Source: Lacunisphaera limnophila
Lineage (GTDB): Bacteria; Verrucomicrobiota; Verrucomicrobiia; Opitutales; Opitutaceae
Direction: 5' to 3'
Assembly (NCBI RefSeq): GCF_001746835.1
Contig: NZ_CP016094.1
Span: 1,116,001-1,180,000 of the forward strand
Length of the DNA: 64,000 bases
Positions 34,118-44,548 of this stretch are shown piece after piece (positions within the stretch are counted from its first letter, which is position 1; each line of letters opens with the position of its first letter). A program made the position numbers and the translations under genes. The notes beneath the pieces were generated by a model. It did not search any database and was not told the DNA's origin. It saw only the letters and a list, made by a program, of their open reading frames with translations.

Positions 34118-34738
34118 ATGGCCTCAAGCTCTTCCGCCACCCCTGCGAGGATATTAGCTGCTGCTGAAGCGCTATTTGCAGACAATGGATACGCCAACAT
34201 CACCTTGCGGCAGATCACGGCTCACGCCGGGGTAAACCTGGCCGCGGTCAACTACCACTTCTTCGATAAGGAAACGCTGTACCGGGAACTGCTCACGCAG
34301 CGCCTGCGGCAGATCAATCATCAACGCGCGGTCTTGCTGGAGGCCGCCGAGGCCCGGGCACCGGACGGTCTGGCGCCGCTGGATGAAATCATGGATGCCC
34401 TCGCCCGGCCCGCCTTTCTGCCCGAGGGGGCCTTCACCCCTGCCAGTGCCCGCCTCCTTGGCCGCGTTCTGCTTGAGCAGGCTACCTTGACCGAGGGTCT
34501 GTTGCAGCAGGAATTTCAACCCATGATGACCCGTATCGGCCAGGCCTTGCGTCGTCACCAACCCGGCCTGCCCCCGGCGGATTTCCTCTGGCGCTTCAGT
34601 TTCATCGTCGGCGCTCTGCACCACTCACTCGCCACCCTGCCCAATATGCATGCCCTGACCCAAGGGATCTGCCGGGACAACGATGCCAATGCCGCTCTCG
34701 GCAGTTTTACAAAATTCGCCATCGCGGCGATGCGCTAG
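34118..34738 (+). CDS. TetR-family transcriptional regulator
   Basis: 206 residues. The N-terminal helix-turn-helix region ARILAAAEALFADNGYANITLRQITAHAGVNLAAVNYHFFDKETLYRELL is textbook TetR. The C-terminal domain (from about 70) resembles the CecR/YbiH type in which the ligand pocket is large and hydrophobic. Start chosen at 34118 (MASSSSATP); a GTG or ATG earlier would lie in the operator. It probably controls the divergent thioesterase and itself, sensing a fatty acyl or aromatic ligand. Confidence 0.9.
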   Translation: MASSSSATPARILAAAEALFADNGYANITLRQITAHAGVNLAAVNYHFFDKETLYRELLTQRLRQINHQRAVLLEAAEARAPDGLAPLDEIMDALARPAFLPEGAFTPASARLLGRVLLEQATLTEGLLQQEFQPMMTRIGQALRRHQPGLPPADFLWRFSFIVGALHHSLATLPNMHALTQGICRDNDANAALGSFTKFAIAAMR

Positions 34739-34978: not shown

Positions 34979-35143
34979 ATGCTCACCGCCATCATCATCC
35001 TTGCCTTGCTTTCCCTCCTCGTTGCCACCGAGGGGGATCCCGCGAACCCGACTGTCGAGACCAACGCGGAAAAGCCGGTGCGCCCGGCCGGTCAGAACGG
35101 GGCTGAGGGCAAGGCCGACAAGCGCTGCCGCCTCGCCGCTTAG
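34979..35143 (+). CDS. Candidate 54-residue small membrane protein
   Basis: Short frame: MLTAIIILALLSLLVATEGD is a hydrophobic segment that could be a signal or a single helix, then a polar Pro/Glu/Lys tail ending RLAA. The composition is consistent with a real small protein. There is no clear Shine-Dalgarno and no homologue I recognise, so confidence is low. The surrounding 34739-35248 stretch holds no other gene apart from the inverted repeat. Confidence 0.35.
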   Translation: MLTAIIILALLSLLVATEGDPANPTVETNAEKPVRPAGQNGAEGKADKRCRLAA

Positions 35144-35248
35144 GCTGTCGCCCCGCCGCCCAGCGGCTCCCATGGCGGTAAGATAACTTAGGGAAACCTG
35201 GCTTGCGCTTCCGGAAGGCTTTCATTCCCTACCGGCTCACAACCTTCC

Positions 35249-36385
35249 ATGCGCCGTTTCTTCGCCTCCCTTGTCCAGTGGATTGATTCCGACTACTCCG
35301 TCGAATCACCTGATGCCATCCGCGCCCAGCCCGATGGCGTGAATCTCGTCCGCTGCATTCCCTTCATCATCCTGCATCTCGGCTGCCTCGGGGTCATCTG
35401 GGTCGGCTGGAGCTGGTTCGCCGTCTGGACCGCGGTCGCCCTCTACTTCCTCCGGATGTTCGCGGTCACGGGTATCTTCCACCGCTATTTCTCGCACAAG
35501 ACCTACAGCACTTCCCGTTTCGGCCAGTTCCTGCTCGCCCTCTGGACCGGCACCACCGTCCAGCGCGGCCCGCTCTGGTGGGCCTACCACCACCGGCACC
35601 ACCACCAGCATTCGGACGAACCGGAAGACGCCCACTCGCCGCACGTGCACGGCTTCCTCTGGTCGCACATCGGCTGGATCACCAGCAAGCGCAACTTCCC
35701 GACCGACTACTCCAAGGTCAAGGATCTCGCCAAATTCCCCGAGCTCGTCTGGCTGAACCGGTTCGACATCGTGGTGCCCGTCCTCTTCGCCACCGGCCTC
35801 TTCGGCCTCGGCCGCTACCTGGAACACGCCGCCCCCGGCCTCGGCACCTCCGGCGCCCAGCTTCTCGTCTGGGGTTTCTTCATCAGCACCACCTTCCTGT
35901 TCCACGGCACGGCCTCGATCAACTCGTTCACCCACCTGTGGGGCAAGCGCCGCTTCAACACCACCGACGACTCCCGCAACAGCTTCATCCTTGCGCTCGT
36001 GTGCCTCGGTGAGGGTTGGCACAACAACCACCACCGCTACCAGTCCTCGACCCGCAACGGTTTCTACTGGTGGGAAATCGATCCCACCTACTACGGCCTG
36101 AAGCTGCTCTCCTGGACCGGTTTCATCTGGGGCCTCAAGCCCGTGCCCGCCTCCATCTACGAGGAAGCCGCGCAAATCGCCCACCACGACACCATCCGAC
36201 GCTTCAGCACCTCCTCCGTGCAGCACGAGATCAACACCCTGCGCAAGGTCGTGCCGACCGCCGCCGCCATCGCCATAGCCACGGTGAATTCCCCCGAGGT
36301 CGCCAGTCAGCTGAAGAAGGACGGCCCGGCGATCCACAAGGACGTCGCCGAGCAGACCGAACACCCCGGCACGGACCAGCAGTAA
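35249..36385 (+). CDS. Membrane acyl-CoA/acyl-lipid desaturase
   Basis: 378 residues. Three histidine boxes bind the di-iron centre: HRYFSH (after TM2), HRHHHQH, and HNNHHR near residue 260. Four membrane helices are arranged as in delta-9 desaturases (stearoyl-CoA desaturase-like). It introduces a cis double bond into an acyl chain. A Lys/Ala-rich tail beyond about 320 is variable. A terminator follows at 36414. It immediately precedes a lipid-modification operon that needs unsaturated chains as substrates. Confidence 0.93.
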   Translation: MRRFFASLVQWIDSDYSVESPDAIRAQPDGVNLVRCIPFIILHLGCLGVIWVGWSWFAVWTAVALYFLRMFAVTGIFHRYFSHKTYSTSRFGQFLLALWTGTTVQRGPLWWAYHHRHHHQHSDEPEDAHSPHVHGFLWSHIGWITSKRNFPTDYSKVKDLAKFPELVWLNRFDIVVPVLFATGLFGLGRYLEHAAPGLGTSGAQLLVWGFFISTTFLFHGTASINSFTHLWGKRRFNTTDDSRNSFILALVCLGEGWHNNHHRYQSSTRNGFYWWEIDPTYYGLKLLSWTGFIWGLKPVPASIYEEAAQIAHHDTIRRFSTSSVQHEINTLRKVVPTAAAIAIATVNSPEVASQLKKDGPAIHKDVAEQTEHPGTDQQ

Positions 36386-36413
36386 GGCCAATCCCAGGCT
36401 GGCCACCGCCCCC

Positions 36414-36447
36414 GCCCCGCGCGCCTCCCGCCGCGGGGCTTTTCTTT
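36414..36447 (+). terminator. Terminator after the desaturase
   Basis: Eight-base stem GCCCCGCG/CGCGGGGC with ten-base loop followed by TTTTCTTT. It separates the desaturase transcript from the next operon. Confidence 0.8.
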
Positions 36448-36535
36448 GAATCCGCCGCCCCGTGCCGGGCGTAGCTTGCCACGTGCGCCCGTCCGGAATT
36501 ACACCTCCTGCCATCAAAACCCGCCCCGCCCTGCG

Positions 36536-37822
36536 ATGACCAAACTCGCCATCATCGGCACCGGTATCTCCGGCCTGGGCTGCGCCCATTTCCTGCACCG
36601 CCACTTCGACGTCACCCTCTTTGAGCAGAACGGTTACGTCGGCGGCCACACCAACACCGTGACCGTGCCCGAGGCCGGCACCGGCCGTCCGCTGCCCATT
36701 GACACCGGCTTCATGGTGTTCAACTACGCGACTTACCCGCAGCTGACCCGCCTCTTCGCCGCGCTGAACGTCCCGGTGAAGAAGACCGACATGTCGTTCA
36801 GTGTGCGCCACGAGGACACCGGTCTCGAATTCTGCGGCTCCTCCCTCAACCACCTCTTCGCCCAGCGCCGCAACCTCCTCCGCCCGTCCTTCTACCGGAT
36901 GCTCTTCCAGATCGACCGCTTCAACCGCGATGCGATCGCCGCCCTGGACGACCCGGCCCTCGATACGCAAACCCTCGCCGACTACGTGCGTGCCCGCGGC
37001 TACGGCGCGGACTTCCTCGATCTCTACCTCGTGCCGATGAGCAGCGCGGTCTGGTCCACTCCGCCCGACAAGATGCTCCTCTTCCCCGCCCGGGCGCTGC
37101 TGCGTTTTTTCCACAACCACGGCTTCCTTGGGCTCAACACCCAGCACCAGTGGTGGACGGTCGACGGCGGCGCGCAGGAATACGTCAAGCGACTCACCGC
37201 GCCCTGGGCCGACCGCATCCGCCGCACGGCCCGCGTCACCCGCGTCACCCGCGGCCCGGTCGGCACCTTCGTCACCACCGCCGACGGCATCACCCAGCGC
37301 TTCGACAAGGTCATTCTCGCCGCCCACGGCCACGAATCCCTCGCCCTGCTCGCCGACCCCACCCCCGACGAGGCCCGCCTCCTCCGCGAATTTCAGTACC
37401 AGGCCAACACCGCCACGCTGCACACCGATGCCTCGGTCATGCCCCGGACCAAGCTCGCCTGGTCAGCTTGGAACTATTCGCTCGCCCGCGACGCCACCGG
37501 CCGCCTCGAGCCCATGACCATCTACTGGATGAACCGCCTGCAGGGAGTCTCCGAACGGGAAAACTACTTCGTCTCCATCAACCGGCCCGATCGCATCGCG
37601 CCCGATCGCATCCTCAAGACCATCTCCTACGAGCATCCGCTCTTCACCCTCGGGGCGGTCCGGGCCCAAACCGAGATCCCCGCCCTCAACGCGGCCGCCC
37701 GCGGCACCACGGAGACCTATTTTTGCGGCGCCTGGACCCGCTATGGCTTCCACGAGGACGGTTTCCTCTCGGCCGTGAACCTGTCCGGGCTCCTGTTGGC
37801 GCGGGATCCCTGGACCGGGTGA
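36536..37822 (+). CDS. FAD-dependent amine-oxidase-like oxidoreductase (lipid cluster)
   Basis: 428 residues with N-terminal Rossmann FAD-binding motif IIGTGISGLGCAHFL, and GHTNTVTV as the second loop. The C-terminal FAD-contact region is YFCGAWTRYGFHEDGFLSAV. Homologues are annotated as NAD/FAD-dependent oxidoreductase or protoporphyrinogen oxidase-like and occur constantly beside DUF1365 and Cfa genes. The role is probably oxidation or desaturation of a fatty acyl chain; one such enzyme acts in bacterial furan fatty acid synthesis. The start at 36536 begins the fold; first gene of the operon. Confidence 0.85.
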   Translation: MTKLAIIGTGISGLGCAHFLHRHFDVTLFEQNGYVGGHTNTVTVPEAGTGRPLPIDTGFMVFNYATYPQLTRLFAALNVPVKKTDMSFSVRHEDTGLEFCGSSLNHLFAQRRNLLRPSFYRMLFQIDRFNRDAIAALDDPALDTQTLADYVRARGYGADFLDLYLVPMSSAVWSTPPDKMLLFPARALLRFFHNHGFLGLNTQHQWWTVDGGAQEYVKRLTAPWADRIRRTARVTRVTRGPVGTFVTTADGITQRFDKVILAAHGHESLALLADPTPDEARLLREFQYQANTATLHTDASVMPRTKLAWSAWNYSLARDATGRLEPMTIYWMNRLQGVSERENYFVSINRPDRIAPDRILKTISYEHPLFTLGAVRAQTEIPALNAAARGTTETYFCGAWTRYGFHEDGFLSAVNLSGLLLARDPWTG

Positions 37823-37906
37823 GACGCTTGTCCCCGAGCCGGTTAAGTGTATCGTAGTCAGAATCTCCTGCATCTGTTTGCCGGAACCGCCCGTAATCCT
37901 TCCTCG

Positions 37907-38821
37907 GTGAATTCCTGTCTCTACGAGTGCCATGTCATGCACGCCCGTTTTGCGCCCAAGGCGCACCGGTTCGTGTATCGCATTTTCCTCTTCGCCTTCG
38001 ACCTCGACGAGCTCGACACCCTCCACCGCAAGCTGCGCCTGTTCTCCTGGAACCACCGCAACCTCTATTCCTTCCGCGACACCGATTTCCTCCCTACCGG
38101 TGAAAAACTGCATAACCCCGGTGGCGAACAACCCGCGGCCGCGATCAACCCGCCCACCCCCGCCGCCAGCGTGGCCCGCACCCTGAAGCAACGGGTGATC
38201 GCCCACCTCGCCACCCAAGGGGTCGATCTGACGGGTGGCCGCGTGCTGCTCGTCACCCTGCCTCGCGTGATGGGCTACCTCTTCAACCCCGTCTCGTTCT
38301 ATTTCTGCTACGACCGCGCCGGCAGCCCCGTCGCCGCCCTCGCCGAGGTCACCAACACGTTCAAGGAAATGAAGCCCTACGTCCTCGGTCCGGATACCCG
38401 CCGTGACGGCGCCTTCACCTTGCGCGTCCCCAAGCATTTCTACGTCTCCCCGTTCAGTGACGTCGATGTCGCCTTCGACTTCACGCTCCGCGCCCCCGGC
38501 GAGCGTCTCGCCGTCCAGATCGACGACTACGTCGGCGCCCAGCGCACGCTGACCAGCACGCTCGCGGGCCCGCGTCAGCCGCTCACCGACGGACGCCTCG
38601 CCTGGTTCACGCTCAAATACCCGCTCATCACCCTGCGCGTGATCAGCCTTATCCACTGGCATGCTTTCCGCCTCTGGCTGAAAAAACTGCCTTGGTTCGC
38701 CAAGGCCGCCCGTGCCGCCGACCAGCGCGATCTTTATCGACCGCATGCCTCGCTGGCGGTGCCGGTCCCGTCCGGCGCCATCCTTTCCTCCCCGTCCCTC
38801 GCCCCTTCGCCCAAAGCATGA
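37907..38821 (+). CDS. DUF1365 family protein
   Basis: 304 residues with family motifs CLYECHVMHARFAPKAHRF and FRDTDFLPTG near the N-terminus, then VLLVTLPRVMGYLFNPVSFYFCYD, EVTNTFKEMKPYVL and KHFYVSPF. The function of DUF1365 is not established; it is always linked to Cfa and the FAD oxidoreductase. The GTG at 37907 (VNSCLYECHVMHARF) matches family N-termini; a GTG at 37847 would add 20 residues without conservation. The stop overlaps the cfa start (ATGA). Confidence 0.85.
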   Translation: MNSCLYECHVMHARFAPKAHRFVYRIFLFAFDLDELDTLHRKLRLFSWNHRNLYSFRDTDFLPTGEKLHNPGGEQPAAAINPPTPAASVARTLKQRVIAHLATQGVDLTGGRVLLVTLPRVMGYLFNPVSFYFCYDRAGSPVAALAEVTNTFKEMKPYVLGPDTRRDGAFTLRVPKHFYVSPFSDVDVAFDFTLRAPGERLAVQIDDYVGAQRTLTSTLAGPRQPLTDGRLAWFTLKYPLITLRVISLIHWHAFRLWLKKLPWFAKAARAADQRDLYRPHASLAVPVPSGAILSSPSLAPSPKA

Positions 38822-40116
38822 GTTCCACCGCCTCCACCGCTTCCGCCTCCCTTTCCGCCCGCCCCGTCAGCTTCGCCGAGCGCGCCGTTCTCGCCTCTTT
38901 CGCCGCCCTGCCGCTCGGCCGCCTGCAGCTGGACCTCCCCGACGGCTCCGTCCGCATCTTCGGCGACCCCGCCCTGGCCACCGCCGACCTGGCCCCCCAC
39001 GTCACCAACCACGCCTCCCTCCGCGTGCGCCGACCGGCTTTCTTCAAAAAGTGCCTGCTCCACGGCGACATCGGTTTTGCCGAATCGTTTATCGACGGAG
39101 ACTGGGAAACCCCCGACCTCACCGCCGTGGTCGCGTGGTTCGTGCTGAACCACCGCCAGGCTCCTACCCTGTCCGGCTCCCATCACGCCCGCTCGCTCGT
39201 CCTGAATTTCCTGCGCTTCGCGGACCGCCTCGGCCACCTGCTCCGGCCCAACGACCGCGCCACCGCGCGCCGCAACATCGCCGAGCACTACGACCTCTCC
39301 AACGACTTCTTCGCCCTGTGGCTCGACGAATCCATGATGTACTCGGCCGCCCGCTGGGAACGCGCCGACGCCACCCTGCGCGAGGCCCAGGACGCCAAGA
39401 ATGACGCCCTCTGCCGCCACTTGCGCCTCCAGCCCACCGACCACGTCCTCGAGATCGGCACCGGCTGGGGCGGCTGGAGCATCCACGCCGCGTCCCGGTA
39501 CGGCTGCCGGGTCACCACCGTCACCATCTCCCGCCAGCAACACGACCTTGCGGTGAAACGCATCGCCGCCGCAGGTCTCGCCGACCGCATCGAGGTGCGG
39601 ATGCAGGACTACCGCGACATCACCGGCGCCTTCGACAAGATCGTCTCGATTGAGATGCTTGAGGCCGTCGGACACCAATATCTCCCGGACTACGCCGCCG
39701 CCTGCCACCGCCTGCTCAAGCCCGACGGCCTGCTCGCCCTCCAGTTCATCACCGTGCCCGACCACCGTTACGCGGCGCTGCGCTCGGGCGTGGACTTCAT
39801 CCAAAAGCACATCTTCCCCGGCTCGCTGCTGTTGTCGGTCAACCGGCTGAACTCGCTGCTCAGCGAAAAGGGCGGCTTCGTCCTGCACGCCTTCGACGAT
39901 TTTGGCAGCGACTACGCGCAAACCCTCCGGGCCTGGCGGGCCAGCTTCGCCGCCAAGCTCGACCAGGTCCGCGCCCTCGGCTTTGACGAGCGGTTCATCC
40001 GCAAGTGGCACTACTACCTGTGCTACTGCGAGGCCGCCTTCGCCCTGCGCCACATCTCCGTCGTCCACACCCTGCACTCGCGCGCCAACAACCTCGCGCT
40101 GTCCTCCCGCGCATGA
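38818..40116 (+). CDS. cfa: Cyclopropane fatty acid synthase-type methyltransferase 1
   Basis: 432 residues. N-terminal Cfa domain with RRPAFFKKCLLHGDIGFAESFIDGDWETPDL, then the core with YDLSNDFFALWLD and MMYSAARW. SAM motif I is LEIGTGWGGWSIHAA, and the characteristic IVSIEMLEAVGHQYL and FIQKHIFPGS follow. It adds a methylene or methyl group from SAM to double bonds of phospholipid acyl chains. Co-translated with flanking genes by ATGA overlaps on both sides. Confidence 0.93.
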   Translation: MSSTASTASASLSARPVSFAERAVLASFAALPLGRLQLDLPDGSVRIFGDPALATADLAPHVTNHASLRVRRPAFFKKCLLHGDIGFAESFIDGDWETPDLTAVVAWFVLNHRQAPTLSGSHHARSLVLNFLRFADRLGHLLRPNDRATARRNIAEHYDLSNDFFALWLDESMMYSAARWERADATLREAQDAKNDALCRHLRLQPTDHVLEIGTGWGGWSIHAASRYGCRVTTVTISRQQHDLAVKRIAAAGLADRIEVRMQDYRDITGAFDKIVSIEMLEAVGHQYLPDYAAACHRLLKPDGLLALQFITVPDHRYAALRSGVDFIQKHIFPGSLLLSVNRLNSLLSEKGGFVLHAFDDFGSDYAQTLRAWRASFAAKLDQVRALGFDERFIRKWHYYLCYCEAAFALRHISVVHTLHSRANNLALSSRA

Positions 40117-40511
40117 TCTGGTTCCTGCGCCTCCTCTTCGTCGTCGTCATCGGCTCGATGCTCTGGGTCACGAGCTGGGCCAGCCTGCACCAGCCCCTCG
40201 GGGACTTTGCCCGCAGCGCCACGTTCCGCGACCCCTGGGTGATCGCCACCCTCTTTGATGCCTACTGGGCCTTCATCACGTTCTACGTGTGGATCGCCTG
40301 GAAGGAACAGTCCCTCGCCGCCCGCGTCCTGTGGTTCGTCGCCGTCATCCTGCTCGGCAACTTGGCGATGGCCGCCTACATGCTCCGCGAACTTTGCCCC
40401 GGCCCGGCCGATGGCCGGCTCACGGACATCTTCACCCGCCGCAATCCCGGCACCCTCCTGCTGCCCGGCCTGTTGACCGCCGCCGCCGTGGGCGTCTACC
40501 TGCTGGCGTGA
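40113..40511 (+). CDS. DUF1475-like membrane protein
   Basis: 132 residues with four hydrophobic helices; N-terminal FLRLLFVVVIGSMLWVTSWAS, then DPWVIATLFDAYWAFITFYVWIAWKE, then two more. The pattern resembles DUF1475. Function unknown; its start overlaps the cfa stop (ATGA) and its stop overlaps the next GTG, so it belongs to the lipid operon. Probably a structural partner in the membrane. Confidence 0.75.
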   Translation: MIWFLRLLFVVVIGSMLWVTSWASLHQPLGDFARSATFRDPWVIATLFDAYWAFITFYVWIAWKEQSLAARVLWFVAVILLGNLAMAAYMLRELCPGPADGRLTDIFTRRNPGTLLLPGLLTAAAVGVYLLA

Positions 40512-41002
40512 CCACCGCCGCTCCCGCCCGCTCTTTCTGGCAACGCCGAGTGCGGGATCCCCTGCTGGCGCTGTTCACCCAGGGCATCACCCCCGACAAG
40601 GTCGCCGCCACCCTCGCCGTCGGCACCGCCTGCTCCTTGTTTCCCTTTCTCGGCTTCACCGCCGCCCTCAACCTCGCGGTCGGACTCCGGCTGCGCATGA
40701 ACCAACCCATCATGCAGGTGTTAAACCAGCTCCTCGGTCCCCTGCACCTGGTCATGATCGTCGTCTACGTCCGCCTCGGCGAATGGCTCTGGCACGCCCA
40801 GGACGAGCGCTTCACCCTCACCGAAATGCTCCGGGTCTTCCGGGAGGAAACCTTCGTCTCGTTCCTCCAGCGTTTCGGCTGGACCGGCGTCCATGCCTTC
40901 AGCGCCTGGGCCTTGACGGCCCCGCTGCTCGTGGCGGTACTCTACTACGCCCTCCGGCCCCCTCTGCGCCGGCTGGCGTCCAGCACCCGGGCCCAAGCGT
41001 AA
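40508..41002 (+). CDS. DUF2062-like membrane protein
   Basis: 164 residues. Family features are ITPDKVAATLAVGTACSLFPFLGFTAALNLAVGLRLRMNQP, and a C-terminal pair of helices (AFSAWALTAPLLVAVLYYALRPPL). The GTG start overlaps the previous stop (GTGA). DUF2062 proteins are small membrane proteins of unknown function often beside glycosyltransferases or lipid genes. Confidence 0.78.
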   Translation: MTTAAPARSFWQRRVRDPLLALFTQGITPDKVAATLAVGTACSLFPFLGFTAALNLAVGLRLRMNQPIMQVLNQLLGPLHLVMIVVYVRLGEWLWHAQDERFTLTEMLRVFREETFVSFLQRFGWTGVHAFSAWALTAPLLVAVLYYALRPPLRRLASSTRAQA

Positions 41003-41011
41003 CTTTCCCCG

Positions 41012-41815
41012 ATGGCCCCGCTCCCCCTCCTTTTCCTTGCCTTGGCCGGACTCTGCGCGCTCTTCGCGTTGCTCTGGTTGGTTTGCCGCCGCCTGGACAA
41101 CTACGGGTTTGTGGACGTGGCCTGGTCGTATGCGTTCGCGGTCTTGGCGGTCTTCTACGCCTGGTTCGGCCCCGGCTGGTACCTGCGCCGCTTCACCCTG
41201 GCCGCCATGGCCTTGCTCTGGAGCCTGCGGTTGGGCACCCACCTGCTGAAACGCGTGGCAGCCCACCATCCCGTCGAGGACGGCCGCTACCTGCAGTTGC
41301 GCAAGGATTGGGCCGGCAACTTCGGGCCGAAGATGTTTGGATTTTTCCAGCTCCAAGCCGCGTCCGTCGTGCTGCTCGGCGCGGCGTTTCTCCTGCCGGT
41401 GTTCAATCCCGCCCCGCGCTTCCACCTGCTGGAAATCATCGGCGTCTGCCTGTGGTTCGCCGCGCTCTACGGTGAAGCCATGGCCGACGCCCAGCTCGCG
41501 GGATTCAAGCGCAACGCGGCCAACAAGGGCCAGGTGTGCGCCGTCGGTCTCTGGCGCTTCAGCCGCCACCCGAACTATTTCTTCGAGTGGCTGATCTGGG
41601 TCGCGTTCTTCATCTTTGCCCTCGCTTCCCCCTGGGGCTGGCTGGCCGTGATCGGCCCGGCCAGCATCCTCTACCTCCTGCTGCGCGTGACCGGTATCCC
41701 GCTCACCGAGGAGCAGGCCGTCCGCTCCAAGGGCGACGCCTACCGCCGCTACCAGCAGACGACGAGCGCCTTCATCCCCTGGTTTCCCAAATCATCCACC
41801 GCGAAGGACGTGTAG
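41012..41815 (+). CDS. DUF1295 / steroid 5-alpha-reductase-like membrane protein
   Basis: 267 residues with seven membrane helices. The hallmark C-terminal motif of the family is LWRFSRHPNYFFEWLIW, plus DVAWSYAFAVLAVF near the N-terminus. Members resemble isoprenylcysteine methyltransferase and steroid reductases, which act on lipid substrates in the membrane, so a reduction or alkyl-transfer step on an acyl chain is plausible. Nine bases after the DUF2062 gene. Confidence 0.85.
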   Translation: MAPLPLLFLALAGLCALFALLWLVCRRLDNYGFVDVAWSYAFAVLAVFYAWFGPGWYLRRFTLAAMALLWSLRLGTHLLKRVAAHHPVEDGRYLQLRKDWAGNFGPKMFGFFQLQAASVVLLGAAFLLPVFNPAPRFHLLEIIGVCLWFAALYGEAMADAQLAGFKRNAANKGQVCAVGLWRFSRHPNYFFEWLIWVAFFIFALASPWGWLAVIGPASILYLLLRVTGIPLTEEQAVRSKGDAYRRYQQTTSAFIPWFPKSSTAKDV

Positions 41816-41871
41816 TTGCGCGCCAGCCCCGTCCCTCGCGGCGCGGCCCCACCCTCGCAGTCAAATTTCCC

Positions 41872-42891
41872 ATGATCGATCTGCTGCTCAAAAAAAACCT
41901 CCTGCCCGACTGGCTCATCCGCGTCGGCATCCGCCGGCTGTTGCGCCAGCGCCTGCAGGAAATCGACCACCCGTCGCCCGACCTGCAGGTGGCCCAATTT
42001 GCTGAATCGCTACGCTCCCTGCCGATCGCGATCAATACGGCCGAGTCCAAGGAACAGCATTACGAGGTCCCGACGCGATTCTACCAACTTTGCCTGGGCC
42101 CGCGCCTGAAGTACTCCTCCTGCTACTACGAGCGGGGCGACGAGACCCTCGCCATCGCCGAGGAACGCATGCTCGCCTTGACCTGCGAGCGCGCGCGGCT
42201 CGCCGACGGCCTCGACATCCTCGAACTCGGCTGCGGCTGGGGTTCGCTCACCCTCTGGATGGCGGAGCGTTATCCCCGCGCCCGCATCACCGGCGTCTCG
42301 CACTCCCGCACGCAGCGCGAGCACATCCTCGGCGAGGCCCGGCGCCGCGGCCTGGCCAACGTCCAGATCCTGACCTGTGACATGAACGACTTCGCCCCGG
42401 CCGCCGCCGCCTACGACCGCGTGGTTTCGGTCGAGATGTTCGAGCACATGAAGAACTGGCCGCGCCTGATGGCGACCGTCGCCCACGCGCTCCGCGCCGA
42501 GGGGTTGTTCTTCGCCCACGTCTTCACCCACGCCCGCTTCGCCTACCACTTCGAGGTGCGCGACGAGTCGGACTGGATGAGCCGCTACTTTTTCACCGGC
42601 GGCATGATGCCGGCCCACGGGCTCTTTCCCTGCTTTCAGGACGACCTCAAGCTCGTCTCCGACTGGAAGGTCAACGGCCAGCACTACGCCCAGACCGCCG
42701 AGCACTGGCTGCAGAACATGGACGCCCACCGCGCCGAGATCATGCCGCTCTTCGCCGAGACCTACGGCGCCGCGCACGCCCGCCAGTGGTGGGCCTACTG
42801 GCGCGTCTTCTACCTCGCCTGCGCCGAGCTCTGGTGGTTCCGCTCGGGCGACGAATGGCTCGTCAGCCACTACCTGTTCCGCAAACCGTGA
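41872..42891 (+). CDS. Cyclopropane fatty acid synthase-type methyltransferase 2
   Basis: 339 residues, shorter than the first copy and lacking its N-terminal Cfa extension. Core shows EQHYEVPTRFYQLCLGPRLKYSSCYYERGDET, SAM motif I LELGCGWGSLTLWMAERYP, VVSVEMFEHMKNWP and FAHVFTHARFAYHFEV. In this branch YYERGDE and HVFTH replace the typical Cfa residues, so it may methylate a different acyl position or lipid. Overlaps the TPR gene (GTGA). Confidence 0.9.
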   Translation: MIDLLLKKNLLPDWLIRVGIRRLLRQRLQEIDHPSPDLQVAQFAESLRSLPIAINTAESKEQHYEVPTRFYQLCLGPRLKYSSCYYERGDETLAIAEERMLALTCERARLADGLDILELGCGWGSLTLWMAERYPRARITGVSHSRTQREHILGEARRRGLANVQILTCDMNDFAPAAAAYDRVVSVEMFEHMKNWPRLMATVAHALRAEGLFFAHVFTHARFAYHFEVRDESDWMSRYFFTGGMMPAHGLFPCFQDDLKLVSDWKVNGQHYAQTAEHWLQNMDAHRAEIMPLFAETYGAAHARQWWAYWRVFYLACAELWWFRSGDEWLVSHYLFRKP

Positions 42892-43637
42892 ACCGGCTCA
42901 CCACCCTGCTCCTACTGTTGGCCCTCGGCGTGACCCTGGGCGCCGCCTCCGCCGGCACTCCGCTTGATGAGGCCTTGGCCGCCGAGGCGCGGCTGGATTC
43001 AGCGCGCGCCCTGACTCTGTTCCAGCAGGCCGCCGCCGGGCAGCCGGACGACGCCTTCCTCCTCTACAAGATCGCCAAGCAGTACTCGGACCAGGTGCCA
43101 GACCAGACGACGGACGAGGCAAAAATCGACTACGCCCGCCGCGCCCTCGGCTATGCGCAGCGCGCCTTTGCCTTGGAGCCGACCAACGCCGTCTACGCCC
43201 TCTCGCTCGCGATCTGTCACGGCCACCTCGCCGCCAGCAGCGACGTGCGCACGCGGGTGGAAATGTCGCGCCTGATCAAGGAGGATGCCGAGCGCGCCCT
43301 CCGCCTCGACCCGGACTACGCCTGGGCCCATCACGTGCTCGGCCGCTGGCACTACGAGATCGCCTCGCTCGGTCCGACCGCCCGGTTCTTCGCCCGGCTG
43401 TTCTACGGCGGCATCCCGACCGCCTCGGTGGACGAGGGCATCATCCATCTCCGTCGGGCCACCGCCCTCGAGCCCACCGAACTCAACCATTGGATCTACC
43501 TGGGCTTTGCCTACGCCGCCGCCGATCGGACGGCCGAGTCTCGGGCCGCCTGGGAACGCGGCCTCGCCCTGCCTGACCGCAGCAAGCACGACGGGGTCGC
43601 GAAGCGCCGCGCGCGCGAGGCCCTGGCCCGGGGCTAG
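42888..43637 (+). CDS. Secreted TPR protein (last gene of lipid operon)
   Basis: 249 residues; GTG start overlaps the methyltransferase stop. A signal peptide or N-terminal helix (LTTLLLLLALGVTLGAASA) is followed by TPR-like helix pairs: DSARALTLFQQAAAGQPDDAFLLYKIAKQY, YAQRAFALEPTNAVYALSLAICHGHLA, DYAWAHHVLGRWHYEIASLG and GIIHLRRATALEPTELNHWIYLGFAYAAADRTAESRAAWERG. Likely a periplasmic adaptor; partner unknown. Similar to regulator-of-microtubule-dynamics-like TPR proteins. Confidence 0.85.
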   Translation: MNRLTTLLLLLALGVTLGAASAGTPLDEALAAEARLDSARALTLFQQAAAGQPDDAFLLYKIAKQYSDQVPDQTTDEAKIDYARRALGYAQRAFALEPTNAVYALSLAICHGHLAASSDVRTRVEMSRLIKEDAERALRLDPDYAWAHHVLGRWHYEIASLGPTARFFARLFYGGIPTASVDEGIIHLRRATALEPTELNHWIYLGFAYAAADRTAESRAAWERGLALPDRSKHDGVAKRRAREALARG

Positions 43638-43660
43638 ACTCCCGGTCCGCCGGCGCCGGC

Positions 43661-44548
43661 TCACACCAACACGAGCACGATGGCCGCCAGCATCAGGCCA
43701 CCCCCGACCAGCCGGAGGCGCAACACCCGCGGGTCCAGGTGCTGCTCCTGGCTGTGAAACCAGTGACCGATGGCCCAGACGACGAGCACGCTGACCAGTC
43801 CGCGCGCGCTATAAACAATGTTCACGGCGGTGGCGCCGCCCCAAATGCCGATGGCCAGCACGATGCCGGCGTTGTTCAAGGCCATCAGGACTGAACCCAC
43901 CCCGACCCACCGCCACGACGAACCGTTCATCGCGCGCAAGGGCGCGCTGAAAAAGGGAATCAGAGCCAGCGAGTAGACACCTACCCAGCCAAACATCGCC
44001 GGGGCAAACGCGGCTGCCCCCCACGCGGGCGCCCACTTCTGGATGAACACGTCGCCCAGGCCGTAAAACGACGCGCTCAGCCAGGCGAGCAGCACCGTCC
44101 GTCCGATCATCCGCGGGACGACCGTCCCCTTGCCCAGATGCAGCAACAGCACGGCGGCCGTGCTCAGCCCGGCCCCGACCCACCAGCGCCAGGGCATGTC
44201 CCCGGCGTTGAACAGGACCGTGAAGAGCGCCACCATGAGCACCTTGGTCCCCATGACTGGCGTCGTGACCGTCACATCCCCATGCTTGAGGGCCAGAAAG
44301 ATGCTCGCCTGACCGAGCAGGAAAAACGCGGCCGCCAGCGCCGGCTGCCAATAGAGCTCCAGCGCGACCACCGGACGCCCGGCCGCCAGCCAAAAAGGCA
44401 GGAAAGCCAGGCCCGCCGTCCAGTTCGCCACGAAAGTCGTGCGCCAGACCCCCACACCGAGCTCGGCCGCCCGCTTGAAGGCGAGTGCCGCCAGCACGTA
44501 GGTGAAGGCGCACGCCAGCGGGATCAGCAGGTGCCAGGAGAAGGACAT
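43661..44548 (-). CDS. EamA/DMT-type transporter
   Basis: 295 residues with about ten membrane helices in two halves. The first half has an AFTYVLAALAFKRAAELG entry and ALKHGDVTVTTPVMGTKVLMVAL, and the second has YSARGLVSVLVVWAIGHWF. It resembles drug/metabolite transporters of the EamA superfamily; substrate not deducible. Convergent with the TPR gene. Confidence 0.8.
   Translation of the reverse strand: MSFSWHLLIPLACAFTYVLAALAFKRAAELGVGVWRTTFVANWTAGLAFLPFWLAAGRPVVALELYWQPALAAAFFLLGQASIFLALKHGDVTVTTPVMGTKVLMVALFTVLFNAGDMPWRWWVGAGLSTAAVLLLHLGKGTVVPRMIGRTVLLAWLSASFYGLGDVFIQKWAPAWGAAAFAPAMFGWVGVYSLALIPFFSAPLRAMNGSSWRWVGVGSVLMALNNAGIVLAIGIWGGATAVNIVYSARGLVSVLVVWAIGHWFHSQEQHLDPRVLRLRLVGGGLMLAAIVLVLV

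Follow-up and report, generated by a model that had tools for sequence, protein, structure and literature searches.

A Lacunisphaera limnophila operon predicted to make methylated furan fatty acids

Positions 1,116,001 to 1,180,000 of Lacunisphaera limnophila contig NZ_CP016094.1 (the window, 64,000 nucleotides in full) contain a run of eight genes, at window positions 36536-43637, that includes two genes for Cfa-type methyltransferases of the CMAS family. Furan fatty acids, known from plants, fish and microbes, are unusual lipids of membranes and are believed to scavenge reactive oxygen. Comparison with homologues makes it highly probable that the enzymes encoded here build methylated furan fatty acids within phospholipids already present in the membrane, and very likely that their predicted product includes the dimethyl form. 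The genes, together with the desaturase gene that precedes them, are as follows.

36536-37822, + strand: UfaD-like FAD flavoprotein (Pfam Amino_oxidase/NAD_binding_8); predicted desaturation of the methylated acyl chain
37847-38821, + strand: UfaO-like DUF1365 protein (DUF1365 E 2.5e-76; GTG start at 37847, alternative GTG at 37907); predicted furan-oxygen insertion
38818-40116, + strand: UfaM-like Cfa 1 (CMAS family); predicted S-adenosylmethionine (SAM)-dependent acyl methylase
40113-40511, + strand: small protein with a partial, weak DUF1475 match (26.3 bits against a cut-off of 22.3, 56 of 236 positions)
40508-41002, + strand: DUF2062 protein (E 1e-12; GTG start)
41012-41815, + strand: DUF1295 protein (DUF1295 E 4.4e-64, Steroid_dh E 3.1e-7)
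41872-42891, + strand: FufM-like Cfa 2 (CMAS family; ATG start); predicted SAM-dependent methylase for the second furan-ring methyl
42888-43637, + strand: TPR protein (Pfam RMD1-3/TPR; GTG start), the last gene of the operon
35249-36385, + strand: fatty acid desaturase (PF00487, E 2.3e-17), upstream neighbour, possibly on its own transcript

An earlier note on this DNA had described these eight genes in this order, and all eight are indeed open reading frames on the forward strand that lack internal stops. The same note had them joined mostly by four-base overlaps, as is found at four of the seven junctions; the remaining three are gaps of 24 bases (84 if the DUF1365 gene starts at GTG 37907), 9 bases and 56 bases. 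The Pfam assignments of the operon proteins all lie above the model cut-offs. Compared with three relatives, the genes for the desaturase, flavoprotein, DUF1365, Cfa 1, DUF1475 (0.35-0.38), DUF1295 and Cfa 2 have ratios of nonsynonymous to synonymous differences (pN/pS) of 0.22-0.43, a sign of purifying selection, and so these are not decaying copies. Faster evolution is seen for the DUF2062 gene (0.45-0.72, three relatives) and for the TPR gene (0.55 in one relative; the gene was not found in the other two). The possibility raised in the earlier note that Cfa 2 or the flavoprotein might be an inactive pseudogene is thus contradicted, the genes being intact and under purifying selection. Within the 4.2 Mb genome, a single contig, there are two strong CMAS genes, both in the operon, and two other CMAS matches score low, one with 29.8 bits across 130 positions and one with 25.6 bits, short of the cut-off of 27. 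DUF1365 and DUF1295 each have one match in the genome, as does the flavoprotein at E <= 0.001.

The bacterial furan pathway is presented in PMC7380195 as demonstrated in only two species, Rhodobacter sphaeroides and Rhodopseudomonas palustris. According to that source, UfaM methylates cis-vaccenate in phospholipids, its product in Rhodobacter being methyl-branched and having a trans double bond at a shifted position; UfaD, an NAD/FAD flavoprotein, forms the methylated diene; UfaO, a DUF1365 protein, closes the furan with oxygen from O2; and FufM (RPA0924) adds the second methyl (PMC7380195). UfaO is termed there necessary and sufficient for the furan step, its reductant being given as unknown. 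The R. palustris genes ufaD, ufaO and ufaM are RPA2571-2569 and fufM lies elsewhere, beside RPA0923 by number; a strain without RPA0923 was constructed, and FufM homologues were described as confined to a subset of the organisms with UfaM, UfaD and UfaO (PMC7380195).

Six Rhodopseudomonas genomes, reached via a cytochrome c2 search, were searched for CMAS and DUF1365. DUF1365 is single copy in all six, and the flavoprotein has a single match at E <= 0.001 in each of two Rhodopseudomonas genomes. The order flavoprotein-DUF1365-Cfa 1 is the UfaD-UfaO-UfaM order of all four Rhodopseudomonas ufa loci examined, with identities to the proteins of R. palustris XCP of 38.6% (433 columns), 39.4% and 40.2%, respectively. 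Cfa 2 is 46-48% identical to a second CMAS gene, the FufM candidate, in five of the six genomes; the CMAS search found no FufM candidate in the sixth, R. rhenobacensis. A DUF1295 gene directly precedes the FufM candidate at all five of these loci, which stand apart from the ufa locus, and from position and kind we take the pair to be orthologous to RPA0923/RPA0924. A second, weaker DUF1295 is also present in two of the Rhodopseudomonas genomes searched. The Lacunisphaera operon thus unites what Rhodopseudomonas keeps at two places, and all four enzyme types of the UfaM-UfaD-UfaO-FufM pathway are common to the two. The arrangement differs from that in R. palustris, with its two loci, and in R. 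sphaeroides, where ufaM is apart from ufaD-ufaO; moreover, the Lacunisphaera operon belongs to another phylum, adds genes for DUF1475, DUF2062 and a TPR protein, and lies in a genome with no match to ChrR. The earlier note had suggested that methyl-branched or furan fatty acids could be built here from unsaturated chains, a proposal that gains support from this gene-for-gene match to the known pathway (PMC7380195).

The assignment of Cfa 1 is carried by its residues and by its place in a tree of 44 rows, in which 37 UfaM-type rows (33 from the phylum and four from Rhodopseudomonas, picked from 67) are separated from seven cyclopropane synthases (those of E. coli, Aquifex and Lactobacillus and four stand-alone Rhodopseudomonas genes) with a support of 100/99.9. 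A quick tree of 129 rows that included two synthases gave the same split, with a Shimodaira-Hasegawa-like approximate likelihood ratio test (SH-aLRT) value of 93 and a long-branch warning. All 67 rows of the clade have E236/A240/Q266 (E. coli numbering), whether they come from Rhodopseudomonas UfaM (four of four) or from Cfa 1 of the phylum (63 of 63), whereas all seven synthases compared have G236/H240/H266. Cfa 1 belongs to the same family as E. coli Cfa and aligns with it from residue 39 to residue 423, N-terminal domain included, but differs from it by G236E, H240A and H266Q. In E. coli Cfa, His266, Glu239 and Tyr317 are described as ligands of a bicarbonate ion that is believed to accept the proton when the cyclopropane ring closes (PMC11387697). 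At these three ligand positions Cfa 1 carries E, Q and Y, and the loss of the histidine would fit an enzyme whose reaction ends in a shifted double bond. Judged by branch and residues, then, Cfa 1 is a UfaM-type acyl methylase and not a cyclopropane synthase. The E236/A240/Q266 signature, which was derived in this analysis, offers a residue test that parts UfaM from the synthases compared, two kinds of protein that automatic annotation names alike. Mycobacterial MmaA1 (PDB 8raq), an enzyme that makes methyl-branched trans chains, has the motif EAFDA and with it the same G-to-E and H-to-A changes as UfaM; unlike UfaM, it has D in place of E239 and keeps H266.

Cfa 2 lies on a different branch from both Cfa 1 and the E. 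coli enzyme. By sequence its nearest solved structures are the plant coclaurine (E 8.8e-76) and pavine (E 3e-63) N-methyltransferases, with E. coli Cfa at E 3.2e-27. In the 129-row quick tree, the Cfa 2 clade (60 rows, support 100) includes the five Rhodopseudomonas FufM candidates and also, on a long branch and with unsure placement, the two plant N-methyltransferases, so that the branch alone is no proof of the Cfa 2 substrate. E236, E239, H240, H266, F268 and Y317 are found in 53 of 53 phylum Cfa 2 rows and in five of five FufM rows. All 53 phylum rows of Cfa 2 also match FufM, and not the two plant enzymes, at Y137, H266, F268 and Y317; the plant enzymes show G/F, E/E and F/P where Cfa 2 has Y137, H266 and Y317, so that the coclaurine-type pattern is not that of Cfa 2. 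All three bicarbonate ligands of Cfa (E, H and Y) are present in Cfa 2, yet it sits on another branch. Kinship with plant methyltransferases is in keeping with a FufM assignment because Arabidopsis LIME1, a SAM-dependent methyltransferase superfamily protein, is reported to be 37.87% identical to FufM (PMC10940516), and because Chlamydomonas CFA2 is labelled a coclaurine N-methyltransferase in one table of PMC4067076. We therefore regard Cfa 2, by its residues and its neighbours on the tree, as an enzyme of the FufM kind, that of the dimethyl step. As a side observation, the tree hints that its two plant alkaloid N-methyltransferases may derive from a FufM-like lipid methylase.

The flavoprotein is assigned to the UfaD type by homology and synteny. 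The DUF1365 protein, for which a PDB sequence search gave no match up to E 1, has 16 invariant columns in an alignment of 12 sequences, one of them from Rhodopseudomonas, and is assigned to the UfaO type by its sequence. The sole PDB match of DUF1295 is a weak one, to isoprenylcysteine carboxyl methyltransferase (E 0.057), and 12 sequences share the conserved region SRHPNYFFEW; this region and the Steroid_dh match suggest that DUF1295 is a membrane reductase distantly related to the steroid 5-alpha-reductases. Single-sequence structure models of DUF1295 and DUF1365 were too poor for use (mean predicted local distance difference test scores of 53.0 and 43.8). The earlier note had called the DUF1295 protein reductase-like: here it appears as a partner of the pathway, with reduction only a candidate step.

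We searched 288 genomes of the phylum with Cfa 2 (E below 1e-90, the next best match having E 1.5e-33), DUF1365 and DUF1295 (E below 1e-20), DUF1365 alone standing for the furan core in these phylum-wide counts. DUF1365 was found in 64 genomes and Cfa 2 in 53, all of them among the 64 and none among the other 224 (Fisher p 2e-47, a value to be read with the relatedness of the genomes in mind, as they are not independent counts). DUF1295 is present in 59 genomes, in two of which (G223, G286) it is distant and encoded elsewhere; 58 of the 59 also have DUF1365. As the 59 include seven of the 11 DUF1365 genomes without an intact Cfa 2, DUF1295 follows the furan core and not only the second methylation.

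Adjacency was counted by domain ends in the 63 other DUF1365 genomes, G146 (DUF1295 and Cfa 1, no DUF1365) being excluded, and the counts are lower bounds because some loci end at contig ends. The flavoprotein gene adjoins DUF1365 in 57 of the 63, and DUF1365 adjoins or is fused with Cfa 1 in 47. DUF1295 directly precedes Cfa 2 in 36 of the 52 other Cfa 2 genomes and directly precedes Cfa 1 in 12 of the 63. DUF1475 directly follows Cfa 1 in 16 genomes, DUF2062 directly precedes DUF1295 in 18, and a TPR gene follows Cfa 2 in 11. A desaturase gene lies directly upstream of the flavoprotein gene in 15 genomes and upstream of DUF1295 in 11. The full eight-gene order recurs in eight (G045, G060, G091, G181, G187, G190, G199 and G271). 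In 12 genomes DUF1365 and Cfa 1 form one in-frame open reading frame (for example L154, L152, L168 and L145) of 562-1179 residues from stop to stop, the fusion in G242 being cut by a contig end. Such fusions tie the first methylation and the furan-oxygen step together. They add a different kind of fusion to that of the Arabidopsis protein with similarity to UfaM as well as UfaD.

Broken or absent members also occur. Cfa 2 and DUF1295 are split in G121 (L205), one of the 11 DUF1365 genomes without an intact Cfa 2, DUF1365 has one stop in G086 (L148), and in the counter-example G018 (L107) the flavoprotein gene is in two frames and Cfa 1 lies elsewhere; the splits and the stop may reflect either decay or assembly error. 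In two of the three other genomes searched from the same genus (G075 and G122) neither DUF1365 nor DUF1295 is present, nor is a strong Cfa 2 match, and the pathway has therefore probably been gained or lost within the genus.

Taken together, these assignments predict the following route. A cis-monounsaturated chain would be supplied by the upstream desaturase or by ordinary synthesis. Cfa 1 would methylate the double bond with loss of a neighbouring proton, leaving a methyl branch and a shifted trans double bond with no ring, and the flavoprotein would convert this to a methylated conjugated diene. The DUF1365 protein would then insert O2-derived oxygen to close the furan, and Cfa 2 would place a second methyl on the ring carbon still free, yielding the dimethyl furan. 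These steps, from the first methylation onwards, have been shown experimentally for homologues and are assigned here by clade, residues and neighbourhood. DUF1295, a constant partner, is perhaps a membrane reductase that gives electrons to UfaO or repairs oxidised furan lipids. To judge from the proteobacteria, the product should serve as a membrane scavenger of reactive oxygen, here probably without ChrR control.

Several observations weigh against this reading. The operon product is predicted here from genes alone, and neither the substrate position nor the chain length can be read from sequence. The comparators are Rhodopseudomonas orthologues recognised by their neighbourhood, stand-ins for the tested proteins of R. 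palustris CGA009 and R. sphaeroides, and identity to these stand-ins is 39-48%. Only seven synthases were compared, three of them on long branches, and L078 has a very long one. DUF1475, DUF2062 and the TPR protein have no place in the known pathway, and the preference of a FufM-type enzyme for furan over other acceptors is presumed. Synteny is also imperfect: 16 of the 52 other Cfa 2 genomes lack a DUF1295 gene immediately ahead of Cfa 2, and among the 63 genomes Cfa 1 is away from DUF1365 in 16 and the flavoprotein in six. Finally, E. coli with a Halomonas ufaM is reported to have given cyclic fatty acids beside the methyl-branched one (PMC12089945), so that the products here may be mixed.

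Of the alternatives, the one with most in its favour, which we nonetheless consider unlikely, is that only a monomethyl furan or a methyl-branched diene is made and that Cfa 2 methylates something else, for instance an amine, a quinone or a phospholipid headgroup. The nearest solved relatives of Cfa 2 are, after all, alkaloid N-methyltransferases, two of which fall inside its clade, and with 11 of the 64 DUF1365 genomes lacking an intact Cfa 2 the pathway can run without it. Set against this are the four residues that Cfa 2 has in common with FufM and not with the plant enzymes, the fact that Cfa 2 is never seen without DUF1365 in the 288 genomes, and the DUF1295 neighbour that it shares with Rhodopseudomonas FufM.

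That the two Cfa enzymes carry out ordinary cyclopropane synthesis next to unrelated neighbours is very improbable. Both match the CMAS family, to be sure, and in all five plasmid gene tables described below one or both homologues are annotated as cyclopropane synthase family proteins; but Cfa 1, with Q in place of H266, lies outside the seven synthases on the UfaM branch and Cfa 2 is on the FufM branch, and we know of no role in cyclopropane synthesis for UfaD or UfaO homologues, which also counts against it. The residues and branches likewise contradict the outcome, entertained in the earlier note, in which only ordinary cyclopropanes are present; its recognition of two Cfa-type methyltransferases stands, with neither now predicted to make mainly cyclopropanes. 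We give an equally slim chance to a system for 10-methyl branched fatty acids, in which a methyltransferase acts with a flavin reductase and which we take to be TmsAB/BfaAB. A Cfa-like methyltransferase does stand near a flavoprotein here, as in the two-gene operons of PMC7791843. The methyltransferases in that work are said to have been chosen for keeping the Cfa bicarbonate site, and Cfa 1, which has lost the histidine of this site, is set apart from them by that description and not by sequence (PMC7791843). Moreover, the flavoprotein is an Amino_oxidase-type UfaD homologue, and DUF1365 is no part of the system as described there (PMC7791843). Both cyclopropane synthesis and the TmsAB system were set aside on the Cfa 1 residues, the synthase tree and the description in PMC7791843.

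The preferred reading, a methylated furan fatty acid operon, would make this a variant of the known pathway and not a new kind. What appears new is the joining of the complete set in a single operon of this phylum, the added small genes and the lack of a ChrR match, together with the DUF1365-Cfa 1 fusions and the presence of DUF1295 as a constant, unexplained partner; no description of this operon was found in the open literature searched. Being self-contained and from another phylum, the operon points to further producers of these lipids and provides a compact cassette with which dimethyl furan fatty acids could be made.

Similar enzyme sets are found in eukaryotes. In Chlamydomonas, singlet oxygen induces the genes for CFA1, CFA2 (CPLD27), DUF1365 and DUF1295 in a SAK1-dependent manner, with log2 changes of 5.92, 4.05, 3.50 and 3.04, respectively (PMC4067076, Tables 5 and 9), and that paper refers to cyclopropane synthesis. 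A 2021 review mentions that its authors were looking into whether a similar fatty acid modification occurs in Chlamydomonas (PMC8491031). The Chlamydomonas set and Arabidopsis UFAMD1, UFAO1 and FUFM1/LIME1 comprise the same enzyme types as the operon, but they are eukaryotic, and one Arabidopsis protein resembles UfaM and UfaD together (PMC10940516, PMC4067076).

These data single out DUF1295 as a partner common to the operon and the Chlamydomonas singlet-oxygen response. Absorption of singlet oxygen by a furan would leave an ene-dione, reduction of which would give a 1,4-dione that can re-close to the furan. It is conceivable, if doubtful, that DUF1295 is the membrane enone reductase of such a cycle, a role allowed by its co-occurrence with DUF1365 and by the singlet-oxygen co-induction; that of an electron donor for UfaO fits as well. 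Were the recycling role true, the furan lipid would be an antioxidant that NADPH recharges, in organisms ranging from this phylum to green algae. Among the matches listed in a literature search, nothing was to the point on furan regeneration.

The control of the operon probably differs from that in proteobacteria, where the furan genes are described as part of the sigma-E/ChrR regulon (PMC6852236). A profile search with the model of ChrR, the anti-sigma factor of this ECF11-type regulon, gave no match in the Lacunisphaera genome. Above the cut-off of 124.5 bits there are matches in none of 12 phylum genomes and in two of two Rhodopseudomonas genomes; three of the 12 have sub-threshold matches (G187, 43.6 bits; G060, 33.6 bits; G155, 20.1 bits). 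No sigma-70-like promoter was found in 35000-44000. Two further features lie upstream.

36423-36439, + strand: terminator-like hairpin with a T run after it, located between the desaturase gene and the operon (weak call)
34121-34738: TetR regulator upstream of the desaturase, weakly PsrA-like (fatty acid regulator), below the model cut-off

Because 9 kb contains 11 terminator-like sites and shuffled sequence a mean of 4.5, the hairpin is weak evidence of a transcript boundary. The TetR gene was matched in only one same-genus genome among the loci compared and is therefore not counted in the operon.

The genes also occur on plasmids. A tblastn search with Cfa 2 hit 272 plasmid records, not all of them of the FufM type, and five from the best 25 of the 272 were examined. 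The Acinetobacter piscicola plasmid carries genes for an acyl-CoA desaturase, a FAD protein, DUF1365, a Cfa, DUF1295 and a FufM-type enzyme, its common genes being in the Lacunisphaera order with the desaturase first, whereas plasmids of Burkholderia, Rhizobium, Cupriavidus and Shinella have the same kinds of genes in other orders. On the Rhizobium plasmid only a short methyltransferase gene is found at the expected UfaM place. No DUF1475, DUF2062 or TPR gene is named within 8 kb on the five plasmids, whose gene tables are incomplete. A sigma-70-family sigma factor and an anti-sigma factor are encoded beside the genes on the Burkholderia, Rhizobium and Shinella plasmids, but not on that of Cupriavidus, and the anti-sigma factor is named as of the ChrR family on those of Rhizobium and Shinella. 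Other plasmid neighbours include lipocalin, chalcone-isomerase-family, DUF2878, DUF2177 or photolyase genes.

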